DNA from: Mycobacterium sp.
Lineage (GTDB): Bacteria > Actinomycetota > Actinomycetes > Mycobacteriales > Mycobacteriaceae
Assembly: GCA_025965815.1 (NCBI GenBank)
Contig: JAOPWF010000247.1
Location: 1-18,130, forward strand
DNA: 18,130 nucleotides
Direction: 5' to 3'
Under the pieces are notes generated by a model. The model ran no database searches and was not told the origin of the DNA. It saw only the letters and a list, made by a program, of their open reading frames with translations. The first letter of the stretch is position 1. Each line of letters starts with the position of its first letter. Positions 101 through 11,766 of this stretch are shown piece after piece. The translations under genes and the position numbers were made by a program.

Positions 101-223
101 ACCCGTATCTCCTTTACATTCCGTATCCGCGGACGGCGCGGGGCGTCCACTACGAAATGGGGCGTCAAAAGCGCGTGACGACACGAAAACCGCGATGACG
201 CTGCGGTTTGACCTTGATATTCC

Positions 224-229
224 TAGGAT
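224..229 (+). promoter_or_regulatory. candidate -10 box for the importer operon
   Basis: TAGGAT fits the mycobacterial -10 pattern TANNNT and lies 5 nt before the ATG at 235. The transcript could therefore start at or next to the ATG and be leaderless. The same bases also contain a weak AGGA that could serve as a ribosome binding site if transcription starts further upstream. No convincing -35 box is visible. Confidence 0.3.
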
Positions 230-234
230 TGGCC

Positions 235-1311
235 ATGCCCTCAGGGAGGTCCGCTGCCGCGAGTGATGCGAATTTCGCAGACCGGACGGACGTTCCGCAG
301 ATCGAGCTGCAGGGCCTCCGGAAGGTGTTCGGCGAGATCATAGCCGTCGAAGGTGCCGATCTCACGATCGCCGACGGTGAACTGTTCGCCATCCTCGGCC
401 CGTCGGGCTCCGGGAAGACCACGGTGCTGCGCATGGTCGCCGGCTTCGAGCAGCCGACTGCCGGCGTCATCCGCCTCGGCGGCACCGACGTCACGTCACT
501 GCCGCCGGCCCGCCGCGACGTCAACACAGTCTTCCAGGAATACGCGCTGTTCCCGCACATGACCGTCCAGCAGAACGTCGAATATGGGCTGCGGGTGCGC
601 GGGGTCGCCAAACCGGAACGCCGCCGCCGCACCGGTGAAGCGCTCGAGATGGTACGGCTGACCGGCCACGCCGCCCGCAAACCCGCGCAGCTCTCCGGCG
701 GCCAGCGTCAGCGGGTTGCGCTGGCGCGGGCACTGGTCGGACGGCCCCGGGTGCTGCTGCTGGACGAGCCCCTCGGCGCGCTCGATCTCAAGCTGCGCGA
801 GCAGATGCAGGTCGAGCTGAAAGCCATCCAGCGTGAGGTCGGGATCACCTTCGTCATCGTCACCCACGATCAGGACGAGGCACTCACGCTGTGCGACCGG
901 CTCGCGGTGTTCAACGAGGGGCGGATCGAGCAGATCGGGGCGGCCCGCGAGGTGTACGAGCAGCCCGCCAACCGCTTCGTCGCCGACTTCGTCGGCACGT
1001 CCAATGTGCTGGACGGGGCGGCCGCGCAGAAGGTGATCGGCCGGTCCGGAATCTTCGCCATCCGGCCTGAGCGGATCGGCGTCACCGAACCCGGCGCGGA
1101 TATCGCCGCCGGCAACAAGACGGTGGACGCCACGGTGGCGGAGATCGTCTACGCGGGGCCGATCACCCGCGTGACCGCAGACGTGGGTCCCGACGTCACC
1201 CTCGTCGCGACTCTGCTGAGCACCACCGCGGGCGGCCAGGAGCTCAGCCACGGCACCCCCATCACGCTGAGCTGGCCCGACAGGGCAGTCCATGACCTGT
1301 CCACCGAATAG
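235..1311 (+). CDS. polyamine-type ABC importer, ATP-binding protein (PotA family)
   Basis: This 358-aa ATPase powers a binding-protein-dependent importer. Walker A GPSGSGKT is at about residues 55-62, the Q-loop QEYALF at 101, the signature LSGGQ at 153-157, Walker B VLLLDEP at 173-179, and the switch histidine in VTHDQDEA at 211. A C-terminal region of about 110 residues has the look of a TOBE domain. The length and the QEYALFPHMTV and HDQDEALTL segments are typical of the spermidine/putrescine (PotA/FbpC-like) branch. I chose the ATG at 235; an in-frame TTG at 208 is an alternative but adds an unlikely hydrophobic stretch. It is the first gene of a four-gene operon, and the next start is 10 nt after its stop. 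Confidence 0.9.
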   Translation: MPSGRSAAASDANFADRTDVPQIELQGLRKVFGEIIAVEGADLTIADGELFAILGPSGSGKTTVLRMVAGFEQPTAGVIRLGGTDVTSLPPARRDVNTVFQEYALFPHMTVQQNVEYGLRVRGVAKPERRRRTGEALEMVRLTGHAARKPAQLSGGQRQRVALARALVGRPRVLLLDEPLGALDLKLREQMQVELKAIQREVGITFVIVTHDQDEALTLCDRLAVFNEGRIEQIGAAREVYEQPANRFVADFVGTSNVLDGAAAQKVIGRSGIFAIRPERIGVTEPGADIAAGNKTVDATVAEIVYAGPITRVTADVGPDVTLVATLLSTTAGGQELSHGTPITLSWPDRAVHDLSTE

Positions 1312-1321
1312 GAGAGCCGAC

Positions 1322-2509
1322 ATGAAATCCACCGTCTATCGCCTCGGCCTCGCGATCGCCGCGTGCGCCGCCCTGGTGAGCGCGTGTTCGAGTTCGAACA
1401 CATCGAGCAGCACTAGCGAGACGCCGCCGAAGATGGAGCCGCTGAGCACCGTCGGCAACGGCGAGGGCGCGCTGAACCTCATCACCTGGGCGGGCTACGC
1501 GGAGGACGGCTCCAACGACAAGACCGTGGACTGGGTGCATCCCTTCGAGCAGCAGACCGGCTGCAAGGTCAACGTGAAGATCGGCAACACGTCCGACGAA
1601 ATGGTTCAGCTCATGCGGACCGGACAGTACGACGGCGTGTCCGCCTCCGGGGACGCGACGCTGCGGCTGATCTACGCCGGTGACGTTGCGCCGGTCAACA
1701 CCTCGCTGGTGCCTAACTACGCAACGATTTCGCCGTTCCTCAAAGACAAGTCGTGGAACTCGGTGGACAAGCAGACGTACGGCATCCCGCACGGCTGGGG
1801 CGCGAACCTGCTGATGTACAACACCGATGTGGTGAAGGGTGCCCCGGACACGTGGGGCGCGGTGTTCGACGGGGCCCCGTACAAGGGCAAGGTGACCGCT
1901 TACGACTCCCCCATCTACATCGCCGACGCCGCGCTGTATCTGTCGAAGACCAAACCGGGACTGGGCATCAAGGATCCGTACTCGCTCACCGAGGATCAGT
2001 TGAACGCTGCGGTCGATCTGCTCAAGGCGCAGCACGCCAATATCGGTGAGTACTGGTCGGATTACACCAAAGAAGTGCAGGCCTTCGAGTCGGACACCTC
2101 GGTGATCGGGACAACCTGGCAGGTCATCGCGAACCTCGTGCAGAGCGACAACAAGGTGAAGGTCGCGACGGTGCTGCCCAAGGAAGGCTCGACCGGATGG
2201 TCGGACACCTGGATGGTCTCGGCGAAGGCGGCGCACCCCAACTGCATGTACAAGTGGATGGACTACATCACCTCACCGCAGGTGAATGCGCAGGTGGCCG
2301 AATACTTCGGTGAGGCGCCTGCGCAGACCAAGGCATGCGATTTCACCAGCGACAAACAGTTCTGCCAGACCTATCACGCCACCGACGCCGACTACGCCGC
2401 CAAGATAAGCTACTGGACCACCCCACAGAAGCAGTGCGTCGACGGCAGCGGCGACAACTGCACGGCCTACACCGAGTGGGTCGACAAGTGGCAGCAGATC
2501 AAGGGCTGA
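1322..2509 (+). CDS. polyamine-type ABC importer, substrate-binding lipoprotein (PotD family)
   Basis: This 395-aa protein starts at an ATG preceded by AGGAG that overlaps the stop of the ATPase gene. The signal peptide ends in the lipobox V-S-A-C with Cys22, followed by a Ser/Asn/Thr-rich linker, so it should be a lipid-anchored extracytoplasmic receptor. The mature domain opens with LNLITWAGYA and continues with EQQTGCKVNV, the hallmark N-lobe of PotD/PotF-type receptors. IPHGWGANLLMYNTDVV is the usual middle block. The last part is unusually cysteine-bearing (four Cys over about 55 residues), so disulfides near the C-terminus are plausible. Polyamine is the family substrate; the real ligand cannot be read from the sequence. 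Confidence 0.88.
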   Translation: MKSTVYRLGLAIAACAALVSACSSSNTSSSTSETPPKMEPLSTVGNGEGALNLITWAGYAEDGSNDKTVDWVHPFEQQTGCKVNVKIGNTSDEMVQLMRTGQYDGVSASGDATLRLIYAGDVAPVNTSLVPNYATISPFLKDKSWNSVDKQTYGIPHGWGANLLMYNTDVVKGAPDTWGAVFDGAPYKGKVTAYDSPIYIADAALYLSKTKPGLGIKDPYSLTEDQLNAAVDLLKAQHANIGEYWSDYTKEVQAFESDTSVIGTTWQVIANLVQSDNKVKVATVLPKEGSTGWSDTWMVSAKAAHPNCMYKWMDYITSPQVNAQVAEYFGEAPAQTKACDFTSDKQFCQTYHATDADYAAKISYWTTPQKQCVDGSGDNCTAYTEWVDKWQQIKG

Positions 2510-3339
2510 CCGTCGCGGCGAGGGGCCGGCTCAGGCTCGCCTTCCTGCTGATACCGCCGCTGGCCTGGCTGGTTGTCGCCTACCTGGGATCACTTGCGGT
2601 GCTGTTGGTCTCGGCCTTCTGGAGCACCAACACTTTCACCGGCGCCGTGGTGCGGACCTTCACCGGCGACAACATCGTGCGGGTGCTCACCGACGAGGTG
2701 TTCCGGACGGCGACGCTGCGCACCGTGGCGGTGGCCCTGGCGGTCACCGTGATCTGCGGCGTGCTCGCCGTGCCGCTCGCGCTGTACATGGCCAAGGCGG
2801 CCTCGCCGCGGGTGCGACTGGCGCTGGTGGTTGCGGTGACCACACCACTATGGGCCAGCTATCTGGTCAAGGCCTATGCGTGGCGGATGCTGCTCTCGCC
2901 GGAGGGGCCGCTGTCGTGGGCGACCGGCTACACCCCGGGATACGGCCTGGCCGCCACGGTGCTGACGCTGTCCTACCTGTGGTTTCCGTACATGGTCATT
3001 CCGGTGTTCGCGGCCTTCGACCGTGTCCCCGATTCGTTGATCGACGCCAGCTTCGACCTGGGCGCGTCCAGCATCACAACCTTGCGAAGTGTGGTAGCGC
3101 CATTGGTGTTTCCCGGAATCGCCGCCGGCTCCATTTTCACCTTCTCGCTGTCACTGGGCGACTACATCGCGGTGACGATCGTCGGCGGCAAGACGCAGAT
3201 GCTCGGCAACATCATCTACGGCCAGCTGGTCACCGCCAACAATCAACCGCTGGCCGCGGCGCTGTCGCTCATCCCCCTGGCGGCGATCGTGCTGTACCTG
3301 CTGGCGATGCGGCGCACCGGCGCGTTGGAGAACGTGTGA
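2488..3339 (+). CDS. polyamine-type ABC importer, first permease (PotB-like)
   Basis: This integral membrane permease is about 283 aa. It opens with a strongly hydrophobic segment (LAFLLIPPLAWLVVAYLGSL) and has about six membrane helices. The cytoplasmic EAA-type coupling loop reads DASFDLGASSITTLRSVVAPL, which contacts the ATPase. The open frame extends far upstream inside the lipoprotein gene, but homology begins near here. The GTG at 2488 (or 2476) overlaps the lipoprotein gene by about 22 nt, which suggests translational coupling. No strong ribosome binding site is seen, so the exact start is uncertain. Confidence 0.82.
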   Translation: MAADQGLTVAARGRLRLAFLLIPPLAWLVVAYLGSLAVLLVSAFWSTNTFTGAVVRTFTGDNIVRVLTDEVFRTATLRTVAVALAVTVICGVLAVPLALYMAKAASPRVRLALVVAVTTPLWASYLVKAYAWRMLLSPEGPLSWATGYTPGYGLAATVLTLSYLWFPYMVIPVFAAFDRVPDSLIDASFDLGASSITTLRSVVAPLVFPGIAAGSIFTFSLSLGDYIAVTIVGGKTQMLGNIIYGQLVTANNQPLAAALSLIPLAAIVLYLLAMRRTGALENV

Positions 3340-4139
3340 TGCTCTCCGGCGGCCTGCGGCGCGCGATCGGTGCCTGGACCATCCTGGTGCTGTTTTTTCT
3401 CTACGCCCCACTGCTTCTGGTCGTCGTCAATGCGTTCAACGCGTCCCGCACCTTCGCGTTTCCGCCGACCGGGTTCACGTTCGACTGGTGGGCCGCCGCG
3501 TGGAACAGCGACGGCATGTGGAAGTCGCTCGGCAATTCCGTCCTGGTCGGGCTGGGCGCCACCGCCATTGCACTGGTGCTGGGCAGCATGGCCGCTTTCG
3601 CGGTCCAGCGGTACCGGTTCTTCGGTCGTCAGATTGTCAGTTTCCTTGTGGTGCTGCCGATCACCTTGCCCGGGATCGTGACCGGTATCGCGCTGAACGC
3701 GACCTTCACCTCCGCTTTGGGCGTCACGCTCGGGCTGACCACGGTCATCATCGGTCACGCGACGTTCTGTATCGTCATCGTCTTCAACAACACGCAGGCG
3801 CGGTTGCGGCGGCTGGGCACCAGCCTCGAAGAGGCATCAGCGGACCTGGGCGCGTCGTCCTGGCAGACCTTCCGATTCGTGACATTTCCGATGATGCGCG
3901 GCGCGCTGGTTGCGGGCGCAATCCTGGCATTCGCGCTCAGCTTCGACGAGATCGTGGTGACCACCTTCACCGCGGGGCCAACGGTGCAGACCCTGCCGAT
4001 CTGGATCTTCGGAAACCTGTTCCGGCCCAACCAGGCTCCGGTCATCAATGTCGTCGCAGCGGCGCTGACCCTCATCGCGATCGTGCCGGTGTGGCTGGCG
4101 CAGCGCTTCGGCGGGGATCCCGCGACGACCCGCGTCTAG
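3339..4139 (+). CDS. polyamine-type ABC importer, second permease (PotC-like)
   Basis: This 266-aa permease has about six membrane helices and the coupling loop EEASADLGASSWQTFRFVTFP followed by AFALSFDEIVVTTF, a typical PotC-like block. The ATG at 3339 overlaps the previous stop as TGATG, and a GTG one codon earlier is possible. It pairs with the first permease to form the channel. The gene ends on a CTAG at 4136-4139 shared with the convergent MerR gene, so no space is left for a terminator between the two. Confidence 0.87.
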   Translation: MLSGGLRRAIGAWTILVLFFLYAPLLLVVVNAFNASRTFAFPPTGFTFDWWAAAWNSDGMWKSLGNSVLVGLGATAIALVLGSMAAFAVQRYRFFGRQIVSFLVVLPITLPGIVTGIALNATFTSALGVTLGLTTVIIGHATFCIVIVFNNTQARLRRLGTSLEEASADLGASSWQTFRFVTFPMMRGALVAGAILAFALSFDEIVVTTFTAGPTVQTLPIWIFGNLFRPNQAPVINVVAAALTLIAIVPVWLAQRFGGDPATTRV

Positions 4140-4930
4140 GAGTGGGTCTTCGACTCCCACTGACCGCGCATGATCAGCTGGGCGGTGTAGTCGGAAATGG
4201 CCTTGACCACATGTTGTTGCAGGGCGTCGTCGAGTTGTAGGGCGAGGACCCTGCCGCCGAGGTCGCGGTGGTCCTGCACGATTCGGCTCAGTTCGGCTAT
4301 TTCTTCCGGTTTGGGGTTGAAATTGGGGCCGAACCTCGACATGACGCATTCCTGCAGGGTGTCCACCACCTCAGCGGCGAGCTCGTCGATCGTGTCCCGT
4401 GTCGAATCGAACAGCTGCAGAATCGCGTCAATGTAGGCGGCTTTGTTGGGTGCGCGCCCGACGATCTCCGCGACCTTGGGGTCGAACAGCACGATGGCAT
4501 TGTCAGCGATTCCGGCAAGGCCGATCTCGACTAGGCGCAGCGCTTCGGCGCTGCCGGGATCCAGACCGACGATCACGATGCCGGCGGGGGCGGAACGGCC
4601 GTTGGGGGATGTCTCGACGGACTGAGGCTCGTTCCCGGTATGACTGCCCCACCGGCCCAGCATCGCCTGCTGGAGCCCGAGAATATCGGCCAGATTGTGC
4701 CCCTGGCGCATGCCGGTGATGAATTCCGTTATATGCGCCGACGTGAATCCCCTGCGAAGCAATTGATTGATGATTCTCAGCTGCGAGACGTGGTAATCGT
4801 CGTAAAAGGCGGACCGGCCCTCACGCCGTGGCGGGTCCAGCAGGCCGCGCTCCCGGTAGGCGCGGATGTTTCGCGCACTGACCCCCGAAATCCGTGCCAG
4901 GTCATCGAGCCGGTACTCAGCCAACGTCAC
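4136..4930 (-). CDS. MerR-family transcriptional regulator
   Basis: From the GTG at 4930 the protein has 264 aa. Residues about 5-40 read YRLDDLARISGVSARNIRAYRERGLLDPP, the winged-helix DNA-binding head of MerR proteins (HTH, RAYRERGLL, PP, R.GR..Y). The effector part, about 180 residues, is not a type I recognise. It contains VIVGLDPGSAEALRLVEIGLAG and a charged helical end. No metal-binding cysteine pattern is visible, so it is not an obvious metal sensor. It is convergent with the importer operon and divergent from the MFS gene; either could be its target, the MFS gene more likely by geometry. The reading frame continues upstream to 5113, but that extension is low-complexity and unlike the family. 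Confidence 0.82.
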   Translation of the reverse strand: MTLAEYRLDDLARISGVSARNIRAYRERGLLDPPRREGRSAFYDDYHVSQLRIINQLLRRGFTSAHITEFITGMRQGHNLADILGLQQAMLGRWGSHTGNEPQSVETSPNGRSAPAGIVIVGLDPGSAEALRLVEIGLAGIADNAIVLFDPKVAEIVGRAPNKAAYIDAILQLFDSTRDTIDELAAEVVDTLQECVMSRFGPNFNPKPEEIAELSRIVQDHRDLGGRVLALQLDDALQQHVVKAISDYTAQLIMRGQWESKTHS

Positions 4931-4974
4931 GCACCCGGATTCGATCCGCAGTTTCGGCCCCCGCAGGCTGTGGA

Positions 4975-5002
4975 CTACAGCACTCCATGGCGCACACTGT
5001 AG
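4975..5002. promoter_or_regulatory. interrupted inverted repeat upstream of MerR gene
   Basis: CTACAG and CTGTAG are separated by 16 bp. On the reverse strand the right arm contains TACAGT, a plausible -10 box for the regulator gene, so binding here could autoregulate it. The arms are only 6 bp, so this is a weak candidate. Confidence 0.25.
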
Positions 5003-5291
5003 CGCTTGATTACGCAAGCAACCGAGAATCGTCGCCCTCTGATTGGCATTGTCATACTTTCGCCACACCGACCGTCGCCTACGGATGTGGCGGGGCAGTC
5101 GCCGCGTTACCACAGTCTAAGATGTTTGCTGTCTCGCCGTCGCCACGGCCCACACGCCGCCCGATCTCGACGCACGGCTCGGCCCGGCGCTGCCCACCAT
5201 CCGTGACCAGTAGCGATAGCGGCGGTGAGGGATTTCACCTGAAACGAATTCGTAATCGGAATAGCGGTGCGGGAGGATGGGGTTGGTTAAA

Positions 5292-9725: not shown

Positions 9726-9770
9726 GGTAGTCCGCTACGCGTGTGGGGTCGGGCCCGGCAACGCCACCAT
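9726..9770 (+). promoter_or_regulatory. conserved promoter motif, copy 1 (SARP gene)
   Basis: GGTAG-tccg-CTACGCGTG at 9726-9743 is followed by CACCAT at 9765-9770, a degraded -10 box exactly 39 bp from the motif start, as in the two other copies. GTAG and CTAC form an inverted repeat with a 4-bp centre. The motif overlaps the place where a -35 box would sit. Confidence 0.55.
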
Positions 9771-9807
9771 TCGAGTGGTAATGCCGGCCACAGCGAAGCG
9801 GGGCGCG

Positions 9808-10365
9808 ATGACGGGACAGTTCACGGTGACGCTCCTGGGTGATTTCGGCGTCCGGCGGGACAGCCAACCACTCGAACTGCCGCCGTCATGCCAGCGCCTG
9901 GTAATGCTCACGGCGCTTGCCGGCAGGGCGGTACACCGCACCTGGATCTGTTCGAAGCTGTGGCCGGACACGACGCCGCACAACGCCAAGGCCAGCCTGC
10001 GTTCCACGCTCTGGCGGCTGCGCCCGATGGGCGCGGAGGCCCTGCTGCGGGTCGACGCACAGTCCATCGCGCTGGCGCCGGAGGCGGGCGTCGACTGGCA
10101 GCGTGCGGTCGCGCTGATCGAGACCCTTCTCGACGAGCCTGCGGCCGGCACGGACGCGGAGCTGATCGCCGAACTGTTGCCTCTGCTCCGGTCGGGCGAA
10201 CTCCTGCCCGGGTGGACCGATACCTGGAATCTGCAGGAGCGCAACCACTATCACGCGCTGCGGTGGGCGGCGCTGGACTGGCTGCGGAGGTCGGTGTCCG
10301 ATCACCCCAGCCACGTGCGAGGACCGCGGACGCATTGCGCCTCGAGCCTTGAGGGGCGGACGTGA
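9808..10365 (+). CDS. short SARP-type transcriptional regulator
   Basis: From the ATG at 9808 the protein has 185 aa. FTVTLLGDFGVRRDSQPLELPPSCQRLVMLTALAGRAVHRTWICSKLW is the N-terminal part of the OmpR-like winged helix of SARP regulators. ASLRSTLWRLRPMGAEALLRV is the recognition and wing region. VDWQRAVALIETLL starts a bacterial transcriptional activation domain that is clearly shorter than usual and ends in a Pro/His-rich tail. It lacks the ATPase and TPR parts of large SARPs. In-frame ATG 9781 and GTG 9775 are alternative starts close to the predicted transcription start. It lies directly upstream of small-protein genes whose promoters carry the same motif as its own, so it is a candidate controller of them. 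Confidence 0.75.
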   Translation: MTGQFTVTLLGDFGVRRDSQPLELPPSCQRLVMLTALAGRAVHRTWICSKLWPDTTPHNAKASLRSTLWRLRPMGAEALLRVDAQSIALAPEAGVDWQRAVALIETLLDEPAAGTDAELIAELLPLLRSGELLPGWTDTWNLQERNHYHALRWAALDWLRRSVSDHPSHVRGPRTHCASSLEGRT

Positions 10366-10373
10366 CGAGGACA

Positions 10374-10418
10374 GGTAGCCGACTACGCGTGCTACCTACC
10401 GCCAGCCGTCCATACGCT
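10374..10418 (+). promoter_or_regulatory. conserved promoter motif, copy 2 (77-aa ORF)
   Basis: GGTAG-ccga-CTACGCGTG at 10374-10391 starts 9 bp after the SARP stop. TACGCT, a good -10 box, begins exactly 39 bp after the motif start, and the ATG of the 77-aa ORF begins 66 bp after the -10. The site is followed by CTACC, giving an additional GGTAGC/GCTACC symmetry. Confidence 0.6.
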
Positions 10419-10478
10419 CTATCTCATCACGAGCTAGACGGCACGGCCGCAACGGCCGCTCGGCGAGGAGTAACGACG

Positions 10479-10712
10479 ATGGAACAGCTGACACTGGTTT
10501 CGGCAGTAGCCAGATCCGTGGTCGCTGTGAGTAACTCGGAGCCCATTCTCTTCAATTCGCCCCCCACCGGGGCGACATCCGGCCACTGGTCAATGCCGAC
10601 CGTGGCCACTCCGTCGGCCCCTATTTTCGAGGGGGAGCGGCCGGCGGCAGGCGCCGGGGAAAGGCCACGCCTTTCCCCGGCGCCCAACAACCGTGGAGCG
10701 GGTGTTTCATGA
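10479..10712 (+). CDS. hypothetical 77-aa protein
   Basis: The ATG lies 8 nt after GAGGAG. The product starts MEQLTLVSAVARSVVAV, then becomes Pro/Ser/Thr-rich with no helix long enough for the membrane and no recognised domain. The C-terminal 30 residues are encoded across a 15-bp perfect inverted repeat, so that part of the DNA may be selected as RNA structure rather than as protein. Third-position GC looks lower than in neighbouring genes. The stop overlaps the start of the 38-aa gene as ATGA. Confidence 0.5.
   Translation: MEQLTLVSAVARSVVAVSNSEPILFNSPPTGATSGHWSMPTVATPSAPIFEGERPAAGAGERPRLSPAPNNRGAGVS
10650..10684 (+). repeat. 15-bp perfect inverted repeat (hairpin)
   Basis: GGCGCCGGGGAAAGG and its exact complement flank a 5-nt loop, CCACG. 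The stem ends 24 nt before the start of the 38-aa gene. No T-run follows, so it is not a classical terminator. It could be an attenuator or an mRNA-processing or stability element between two coupled small genes. Confidence 0.7.
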
Positions 10713-10825
10713 CCCCGCTACTGGTGGCCTGCGTGTCGGTTTGCACCCCGCTTGTCGCCATCGGCCTGCACGACCTGCAGGGCCGCCTGGAGCAGTGGGA
10801 TTACGAGCGCCACTATCAGGATTAG
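10709..10825 (+). CDS. 38-aa mycobacterial small protein
   Basis: The ATG overlaps the previous stop (ATGA). The peptide has a short hydrophobic N-terminal segment, LLVACVSVCTPLVAIGL, followed by an amphipathic, charged tail, HDLQGRLEQWDYERHYQD. The shape is that of a small membrane-associated protein, and I recall similar short LQxRLExWDxxRH proteins in mycobacteria. No function can be assigned. It is too short for ordinary gene finders and is probably translated by coupling to the 77-aa ORF. Confidence 0.6.
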   Translation: MTPLLVACVSVCTPLVAIGLHDLQGRLEQWDYERHYQD

Positions 10826-10907
10826 ACGGTCCAGGAGTTACCGAGTGGCGTGGCCGGCTCGAAGCCGTGCCTGACCTCATTGACGTCCCATGACTGCGCG
10901 CACACCA

Positions 10908-10933
10908 TGCCGGACAACGAGTGTTGTCCGGCA
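10908..10933 (+). terminator. hairpin after the SARP cluster
   Basis: TGCCGGACAAC and GTTGTCCGGCA form a perfect 11-bp stem around a GAGT loop, 82 bp after the stop of the 38-aa gene and upstream of motif copy 3. CACTTTGTGTG follows, with no real T-run, so termination is plausible but unproven. Confidence 0.5.
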
Positions 10934-10978
10934 GCACTTTGTGTGCCAGCCGACCTGTGTAGTCCGCCGAACAACTCG

Positions 10979-11023
10979 GGTAGTGAACTACGCGTGCTTG
11001 GCCGTGGCCGGCGGCCTTACGTT
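10979..11023 (+). promoter_or_regulatory. conserved promoter motif, copy 3 (113-aa ORF)
   Basis: GGTAG-tgaa-CTACGCGTG at 10979-10996 is followed by TACGTT beginning 39 bp after the motif start, and by the ATG of the 113-aa ORF 66 bp after that. Both spacings are identical to copy 2. A half-site like copy 1 (GTAGTCCGC) precedes it around 10959-10967. Confidence 0.6.
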
Positions 11024-11083: not shown

Positions 11084-11425
11084 ATGTATGCATTACCAGC
11101 GGTATCCGCCATACAGGATCTCGACAAACACGCCACCGCACAGGCGCCGTCGGCGCCGCGCGTTGAGGACAGCACCGAACGGGTTTCGACGCCCGCCCTC
11201 ATCACCGAGCAGGAGGTTGTCTTCAGCACGGCGGCCGCCGTGGCTCTTCCGAGCCCGACGACCACACGCCGGTTCAGCGACCGGCTCCGTTCGGTAGCGA
11301 CGAACGTGTTGGTCTTTCTGACTCCGGCACCACGTCCGCGCCCGGCCCGAAGGCATGTCCCAGCGCGGCGGTACCCCAGCTACTTCGAGAGCTCGCTCGA
11401 ATCGCGCGAGCGGTTGCGTCTCTGA
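11084..11425 (+). CDS. hypothetical 113-aa basic protein
   Basis: The ATG follows an AGGGGG about 11 nt upstream. The N-terminal half is Ala/Thr/Ser/Pro-rich and looks disordered. Around residues 60-80 is TTRRFSDRLRSVATNVLVFLTPA, a possible amphipathic helix. The end is rich in Arg and Pro and finishes RRYPSYFESSLESRERLRL. No known domain is recognised. The C-terminal pattern and the shared promoter motif suggest a conserved mycobacterial small protein under the same control as the SARP cluster. Confidence 0.6.
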   Translation: MYALPAVSAIQDLDKHATAQAPSAPRVEDSTERVSTPALITEQEVVFSTAAAVALPSPTTTRRFSDRLRSVATNVLVFLTPAPRPRPARRHVPARRYPSYFESSLESRERLRL

Positions 11426-11460: not shown

Positions 11461-11766
11461 ATGAACAACTTCGCATTCGCGACCGTCGTCGGTAGCGGGC
11501 TGGCCACCGCGATCCTCGGACTGGCCGGCCCGGCGGCGGCCGCGCCCACGGGTCCCGGCAACGCCCAGGACACGGTCAATGCCCTGCAGGCTCAGGGCTA
11601 CAACGTGATCATCAACAAACTCGGTTCCGGCCCGCTCAGCCAGTCCACCGTTGTCGGCGTGCGCACCGGTCCGACCTACTCGCGCACCGACTCCGGGATC
11701 CCCGGAGCCGGCAACGATGTCATCACCACCATCACGGCCAGGACGGTCTACGTCGACGTGAAGTAG
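11461..11766 (+). CDS. small secreted mycobacterial protein (101 aa)
   Basis: The ATG lies 7 nt after GAAGGG. A Sec signal peptide (VVGSGLATAILGLAGPAAAA) ends around AAA-APT, leaving about 70 mature residues. The mature part reads DTVNALQAQGYNVIINKLGSGPLSQSTVVGVRTG and ends RTVYVDVK, a PASTA-like alternation of helix and strand common in small exported mycobacterial proteins. Where relatives that I recall carry a Cys in the xQCTV position, this one has Ser, so it would lack that disulfide. Function unknown. Confidence 0.75.
   Translation: MNNFAFATVVGSGLATAILGLAGPAAAAPTGPGNAQDTVNALQAQGYNVIINKLGSGPLSQSTVVGVRTGPTYSRTDSGIPGAGNDVITTITARTVYVDVK

Follow-up and report, generated by a model that had tools for sequence, protein, structure and literature searches.

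The Locus

The window, by which we mean the whole stretch of 18,130 nucleotides analysed here, carries the gene of a short SARP regulator, two small ORFs of 77 and 38 aa that overlap, and a further ORF of 113 aa, together with three copies of the motif GGTAG-N4-CTACGCGTG (Table 1). The copies, which start at 9726, 10374 and 10979, are exact and all lie on the forward strand; no further exact copy occurs in the window, and none of 200 dinucleotide shuffles of the window contained the pattern. At all three copies the sequence xACxxT is found 39 bp downstream. The first-pass annotation of this DNA had described three copies in one orientation, each followed at exactly 39 bp by a –10-like hexamer (at 9765, 10413 and 11018) and, for copies 2 and 3, with an ATG exactly 66 bp beyond that hexamer (at 10479 and 11084), and all of this was confirmed. 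It had also named the SARP gene, the 77-aa ORF and the 113-aa ORF as the genes behind the copies. The first and the last of these stand, but the 77-aa ORF has no convincing homologue among the loci examined, and the conserved gene behind copy 2 is the 38-aa ORF, which had been overlooked.

Table 1. Features associated with the three motif copies in the window.
Feature	Position	Strand	Remarks
Motif copy 1, GGTAGTCCGCTACGCGTG	9726..9743	+	Exact match; 5' of the SARP gene
Hexamer CACCAT, –10-like	9765..9770	+	39 bp after copy 1 start; A...T at +39 counted from GTAG
SARP regulator gene, short (185 aa)	9808..10365	+	Predicted OmpR-type winged helix and truncated BTAD-like helices
Motif copy 2, GGTAGCCGACTACGCGTG	10374..10391	+	Exact match; equivalent site 3' of the SARP gene in L038, L039 and L040
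Hexamer TACGCT, –10-like	10413..10418	+	39 bp after copy 2 start
77-aa ORF	10479..10712	+	ATG 66 bp after copy 2 hexamer; ATGA overlap with 38-aa ORF
38-aa microprotein, MTPLLVACVSVCTPLVAIGLHDLQGRLEQWDYERHYQD	10709..10825	+	Relative 3' of the SARP gene in 29/30 loci
Motif copy 3, GGTAGTGAACTACGCGTG	10979..10996	+	Exact match
Hexamer TACGTT, –10-like	11018..11023	+	39 bp after copy 3 start
113-aa ORF	11084..11425	+	ATG 66 bp after copy 3 hexamer; distant member of the 'LITEQQVLFSTAAA ... YLENSLMAREMDRL' small-protein family

Elsewhere in the window, ABC importer genes (ATPase, binding protein and two permeases), with a convergent gene for a MerR-type regulator, lie at 208-4139 and 4136-5113, and an exported-looking ORF of 101 aa lies at 11461-11766. 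When a 2.2-kb query was compared with plasmids, two records covered 11–12% of it and none covered most of it; the segment 11461-11766 was the only part of the query matched in these two Mycolicibacterium plasmids (67–71% identity).

The Regulator and the Small Proteins

The short regulator has no Pfam hit at E ≤ 0.01 and shows a weak NCBIfam match to AfsR, with an E-value of 0.0033 that lies far under the cut-off. Its AF2 model has a mean pLDDT of 84.8, and Foldseek placed AfsR (8hvr/8k60) and EmbR (2ff4) as the best matches to this model, followed by PhoB-type domains; for this reason we regard the protein as a SARP whose BTAD region, as modelled, is truncated. An OmpR/PhoB-type winged-helix DNA-binding domain is recognisable in the model and through Foldseek, and beyond it the model has only three helices in place of a complete BTAD domain. 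Relatives of this protein form a set of 52 proteins scoring at least 154 bits (the window's own among them), the next match being at 88 bits, and PF03704 is present in two of the 52 close relatives listed. At one locus (L166, genome G208), an apparent remnant of the SARP gene, recognised by reading of the sequence, follows an intact motif and –10.

The 38-aa microprotein accompanies the regulator closely. By tblastn, 29 of 30 SARP loci have a relative 3' of the regulator gene, the only exception being L089; a strict regular expression recovers it in 20 of the 30, missing the forms that end in ...QD, so that the higher count is that of tblastn. Matches to the family, whose consensus is ..PLAALGxHxLQxRLERWDYERHAED, were obtained in 201 of the 396 genomes of the genus; it has no Pfam family, and the microprotein appears from its sequence to contain one membrane span. 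Its members occur in two contexts, either behind the motif or in loci in which about 1.5 kb on either side contains no motif (L135, L138, L141 and L142). In three of these four motif-free loci the neighbours read as acyltransferase-like.

The 113-aa ORF shares 33–40% identity (tblastn) with motif-driven proteins of seven other loci (L017, L044, L055, L057, L067, L071 and L074). These proteins of about 100 aa carry LITEQQVLFSTAAA in the first half and YLENSLMAREMDRL at the end. With one member as query, 89 proteins were retrieved, the listed lengths ranging from 76 to 121 aa; they are hypothetical or uncharacterised wherever a product is named, and belong to Mycobacterium or Mycolicibacterium wherever a species is given.

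Architecture of the Promoter Element

Sites from other loci were gathered by the motif or by the neighbouring gene, never by their –10, and the 285 site records were reduced to 119 non-redundant ones by leaving out near-duplicates (at least 50% identity downstream) and the copies of the window. Counted from GTAG, an A at +38 or +39 with a T four bases later is present in 109 of these 119 sites, compared with 5.75 on average, and 14 at most, when the same sites were read in shifted windows. The spacing of +38 is commoner than +39 (72 vs. 40 sites), and the window copies use the latter. The arrangement extends to other genera of the family, in which the –10 is in place at 27 of the 30 sites that came with DNA, and to genomes of the SARP-negative group, in which the non-redundant sites carry A at +38 (17/24) and T at +42 (20/24). 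The first-pass annotation had proposed a scan of mycobacterial genomes in which the –10 is sought at the fixed distance, and had named random positions or spacings as a result that would speak against it; the scan was strongly positive and no such randomness was seen. Its reading of selection on position, with a motif overlapping the –35 position in the geometry of an activator site, is supported.

When the sites are aligned on A...T, again leaving out the window copies, the –10 takes the form tACgNT and the –35 position that of RYGnnn. Outside the core, enrichment is seen for A (–6), T/A (–4), C (–3) and G/A (–2), and positions +18 to +36 hold little information (at most 0.53 bits). For 87 sites a start codon preceded by a ribosome-site-like stretch was found, the median distance from the A being 55 nt. 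Upstream, the conserved part consists of a 12-bp palindrome, GTAGTNNACTAC, which has its centre at about –44 and stops about 20 bp short of the –10. Palindrome, poor –35 and tACgNT together look like an activator-type promoter; judged by sequence, they amount to a class II arrangement, in which an activator-type site abuts the –35 at a fixed distance, the –35 is poor and the –10 is recognisable.

Two readings of this pattern can be set aside or nearly so. Chance, or the recent duplication of one promoter, would account for three copies within 1.3 kb, but the absence of the pattern from all shuffles, the unconserved flanks of the copies and the recurrence of the element at other loci and in other genera already contradict it and leave it a negligible probability; that the copies are not a recent duplication had been claimed from the start and holds. 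Sigma factors read asymmetric hexamers. The very rigid spacing and the non-consensus –35 would suit an alternative sigma factor that reads the whole element, in place of an activator acting with the housekeeping sigma factor; the upstream part, however, is a 12-bp palindrome at about –44, and tACgNT resembles a housekeeping –10, and we consider this reading very improbable.

A literature search yielded no description of this element, which is weak evidence of novelty as most subscription journals lie outside its coverage. The motif letters that occur in one mycobacterial paper (PMC13083937) are, in the part of that text available, parts of cloning oligonucleotides, and the titles of the other papers listed for these letters are unrelated.

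Distribution Across Genomes

The genome from which the window derives (877 contigs, 81% complete) contains five exact matches to GTAG-N4-CTACGCGTG, compared with none for the reversed control. Two of them lie outside the window, on contigs C20 and C679, and two further sites with variant tails are found on C177 and C788, so the set is larger than the three copies to which it had seemed limited. The A...T at +38/39 is present in six of these seven sites, that of C20 lacking it. With one mismatch allowed the same genome gives seven sites and nine control hits, no excess, which makes the loose pattern uninformative.

Across 396 genomes of the genus, the pattern with the strict tail gave 310 exact sites vs. 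222 hits of the reversed control, and the genomes with at least one motif (162/396) were fewer than those with a reversed-control hit (174/396). The excess is concentrated in the genomes that hold the SARP gene, with 2.55 sites per genome vs. 0.63 for the control in the 49 SARP-positive genomes and no excess in the 347 SARP-negative ones (0.53 vs. 0.55 on average); in this division, three SARP matches at 109–112 bits are classed as negative and one partial match at 113 bits (G079) as positive. Since other tails are found in SARP promoters (among them GCATG, TGATG and TCACG), the tail was relaxed to GTAGTNNACTACNSRYG and the search applied to the 49 SARP-positive genomes and to 111 of the SARP-negative ones. 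This gave 196 sites in the former (control 40) and 110 in the latter (control 51), that is, averages of 4.0 and 0.99 per genome. At least one relaxed site is present in 46/49 vs. 50/111 genomes and at least three in 37/49 vs. 15/111 (p = 3e-14, the species not being independent). The reversed control differs between the groups as well (0.82 vs. 0.46 per genome, p = 3e-4), and part of the difference in site number is therefore compositional. In other genera of the family, sites occur in 19 of 80 genomes (55 sites vs. 23 control hits), and any site at all is found in 4/4 genomes with a SARP relative vs. 15/76 without (p = 0.0025).

Sites are nonetheless abundant in some genomes for which the search detected no SARP relative. 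G028 has ten and G013 six, with controls of zero, and at E ≤ 0.001 both lack a SARP match. In fourteen SARP-negative genomes with at least three sites, SARP matches do not exceed 23.5 bits, and among 13 further genomes picked for strict sites a match at E ≤ 1e-6 was found only in G255 (90 and 111 bits) and G290 (45 bits). G028 keeps the microprotein gene together with its site, and the interval from these to the upstream gene, which is LtrA-like (named by reading) and oriented away from the site, contains no SARP gene.

Genes Behind the Sites

The target genes to be scanned were chosen by hand, and the following is a description rather than an enrichment test; nine of the first 20 target proteins scanned have no Pfam family. 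Within the genus, the targets include fusions of trypsin and DNA/RNA endonuclease domains (in G273 and in the SARP-free G013), Tle1-like lipases (in G327 and on contig C20 of the window's own genome, behind the site without a –10), a DUF2278 protein with a sub-threshold LTD, PG_binding_1, peptidases of the M43, C1, A4, S58 and M4 families, a multicopper oxidase, an aminotransferase (contig C679), cupin and LysM proteins, P450-like and PE-like proteins (by reading) and many members of the family of about 100 aa. In other genera they comprise Tle1-like, patatin, LysM, TIR+nSTAND1 and LAL-type AAA proteins.

Several of these placements deserve a separate mention. An S58 peptidase gene lies behind a conserved site at eight loci (L009, L015, L031, L154, L169, L174, L175 and L181; by Pfam in L015, by reading in the others); none of the eight genomes is among the matches of the microprotein family, and no regulator adjoining the site was recognised in the four loci viewed. 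PE-like and PE_PGRS-like genes (by reading) stand directly behind the motif in L151, L264 and L267. In another genus, immune-type genes stand under this type of promoter, TIR with nSTAND1 by Pfam in L318 and a close relative by reading in L319. LAL-LuxR genes carry the motif in their own promoter in L186-L190, L193 and L194, all from SARP-negative genomes.

Three more specific assignments were considered and rejected. Between the two sites of G327, which are 8 kb apart, reading revealed only unrelated genes and no secretion- or injection-system cluster; the LysM/phage-tail-X-like target has no secretion- or injection-system cluster in the 0.8 kb downstream of it; and PADLOC, run on nine proteins for known defence systems, returned only weak protease-domain matches in two of them.

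Which Protein Reads the Element?

We consider, with a probability of roughly 0.6, that the three copies of the window belong to a widely conserved and probably activator-dependent promoter class, which is bound by a separate activator and counts the SARP gene among its targets. A dimeric activator would bind the palindrome, whose end falls just upstream of the degenerate –35, and would recruit the housekeeping RNA polymerase to the tACgNT hexamer 17–18 bp further on, the centre near –44 corresponding to class II geometry. Within the window, this would turn on the SARP gene together with the 77-aa/38-aa pair and the 113-aa gene. The direct binder would be common to SARP-containing and SARP-free genomes and, judging from the geometry, perhaps of the LuxR/NarL type; the SARP, or a LAL-LuxR protein elsewhere, would be a regulated member that may amplify or redirect the response. 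In our judgement a third, shared activator is favoured because two unrelated regulator families, SARP and LAL, stand under the same promoter. Several findings count against it: no gene for a separate activator was identified, the C20 site before the Tle1-like gene lacks a –10, the strict-tail pattern is not in excess over the control in the SARP-negative genomes taken together and occurs in fewer of the 396 genomes than the control, and the presence of the SARP gene predicts the number of sites, both in the genus and in other genera, as is expected if the SARP itself is the binder.

This last alternative, in which the SARP binds the palindrome and activates its own gene, that of the microprotein and other targets, while SARP-free genomes keep relic sites or a replacement regulator, survives best among the rivals, and we judge it unlikely rather than remote. 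Orthologous SARP genes have the core at the same promoter position as copy 1: among the 30 loci fetched (of 52 matched) it is exact in 28 and has one mismatch in the other two, and in all 28, the window's included, the A...T is in place at +38/39. In a genome of another genus (G436), whose SARP is longer (254 aa), the site starts 97 bp before the ATG with the A...T in place, and SARP-positive genomes are the richer in sites. On the other hand, the other five SARP-like loci fetched from other genera (L284 and L286-L289) have no exact core, L288 having a one-mismatch core on the opposite strand. A SARP box consists of direct repeats spaced by 11 or 22 bp, with the 3' repeat 8 bp from the –10, and the AfsR box is centred at –29.5, as far as the available part of the source goes (PMC10936776). 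The element described here, instead, is an inverted repeat that ends about 20 bp before the –10, no direct repeats with that spacing and position are found at it, and the stretch in which a SARP box would fall (+18 to +36) is the poorly conserved one. Moreover, up to ten sites are present in genomes without a detected SARP relative, and the –10 matches in SARP-negative genomes; this weakens the SARP as sole binder and makes it more likely to be a target or an amplifier. The earlier idea of SARP autoactivation thus keeps its basis in the SARP's own promoter, which nearly always has the motif, and is no longer the simplest explanation of the whole set, for which an unlinked regulator, at first given as an equal possibility, is now preferred. 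Likewise, the label of a small SARP-linked regulon has to be dropped, as the same architecture is found in genomes with no detected SARP relative and before unrelated LAL-LuxR genes, and overall the earlier interpretation is partly supported.

The binding sites of GerE domains are short palindromes located at about –42. A LAL-LuxR protein (AAA_16, TPR, GerE) could hence be imagined as the direct activator of the class: a site precedes seven of the nine LAL genes that score highest against the LAL alignment (three of the seven had led to the family, which leaves four of the six others), and in another genus it precedes two AAA-type LAL-like genes (L290 and L291), a C-terminal GerE domain being visible by reading in L320. 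However, at E ≤ 1e-120, with the best two candidates per genome scored, the LAL alignment has no match in the site-rich G273, G298, G327, G141, G177 and G021 or in the window's genome, and none of the next 21 LAL paralogues has a site. Because of these site-rich genomes, LAL-free at the threshold used, and of the paralogues, LAL proteins are improbable as the general binder.

Returning to the shared activator, a broader and more tentative possibility, which we hold to be less probable than not, is that of a so far undescribed effector regulon extending through the family, in which one activator and one promoter class switch on lytic-type enzymes (Tle1-like lipases, trypsin-endonuclease fusions, patatin and several protease families), the TIR-STAND gene, the microprotein and the protein of about 100 aa, with lineage-specific amplifiers, SARP or LAL. 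Many of these enzymes appear, by eye, to have no signal peptide. The many hydrolases and the immune-type TIR-STAND gene among the targets suggest a role in stress, defence or antagonism. If this is true, the effector regulon would be a programme of this kind with different amplifiers in each lineage, and would tie SARPs and LALs, which are usually discussed for antibiotic clusters, to a hydrolase-rich gene set. The rigid two-part promoter, recognisable in the sequence of dozens of mycobacterial and related genomes, already provides a list of probably co-regulated genes, many of which are unannotated, including those of the 38-aa microprotein and of the family of about 100 aa.

Comparison With Known Systems

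Close parallels in promoter logic are the 'sigma adaptation' promoters of PafBC and AfsR, in which, in the parts of the sources available, an activator motif likewise keeps a constant spacing to the –10 and the –35 is poor or absent (PMC11804915; PMC10936776). Position and symmetry differ from both: the PafBC motif lies at –26 (PMC11804915, likewise in part) and the AfsR box at –29.5, whereas the element here is a palindrome near –44.

With the SARP family (AfsR, EmbR and RedD type) the protein of the window shares, as modelled, the OmpR-type winged helix and part of a BTAD-like region; it differs in that proteins of its type are 168–185 aa long with a truncated BTAD and no Pfam hit, and in that the site beside its gene is an inverted repeat placed further upstream than the SARP direct repeats. 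The genes of LAL regulators, proteins with AAA_16, TPR and a C-terminal GerE domain, stand behind this site in seven genomes, but no LAL regulator is seen in the window and many site-rich genomes have no match at the threshold. Lux-box and other class II activator sites are palindromes centred near –42 to –45 that abut the –35. The sequence of the element is another one and a LuxR-type binder is only putative, but its palindrome lies at a comparable position and abuts the –35 in the same way.
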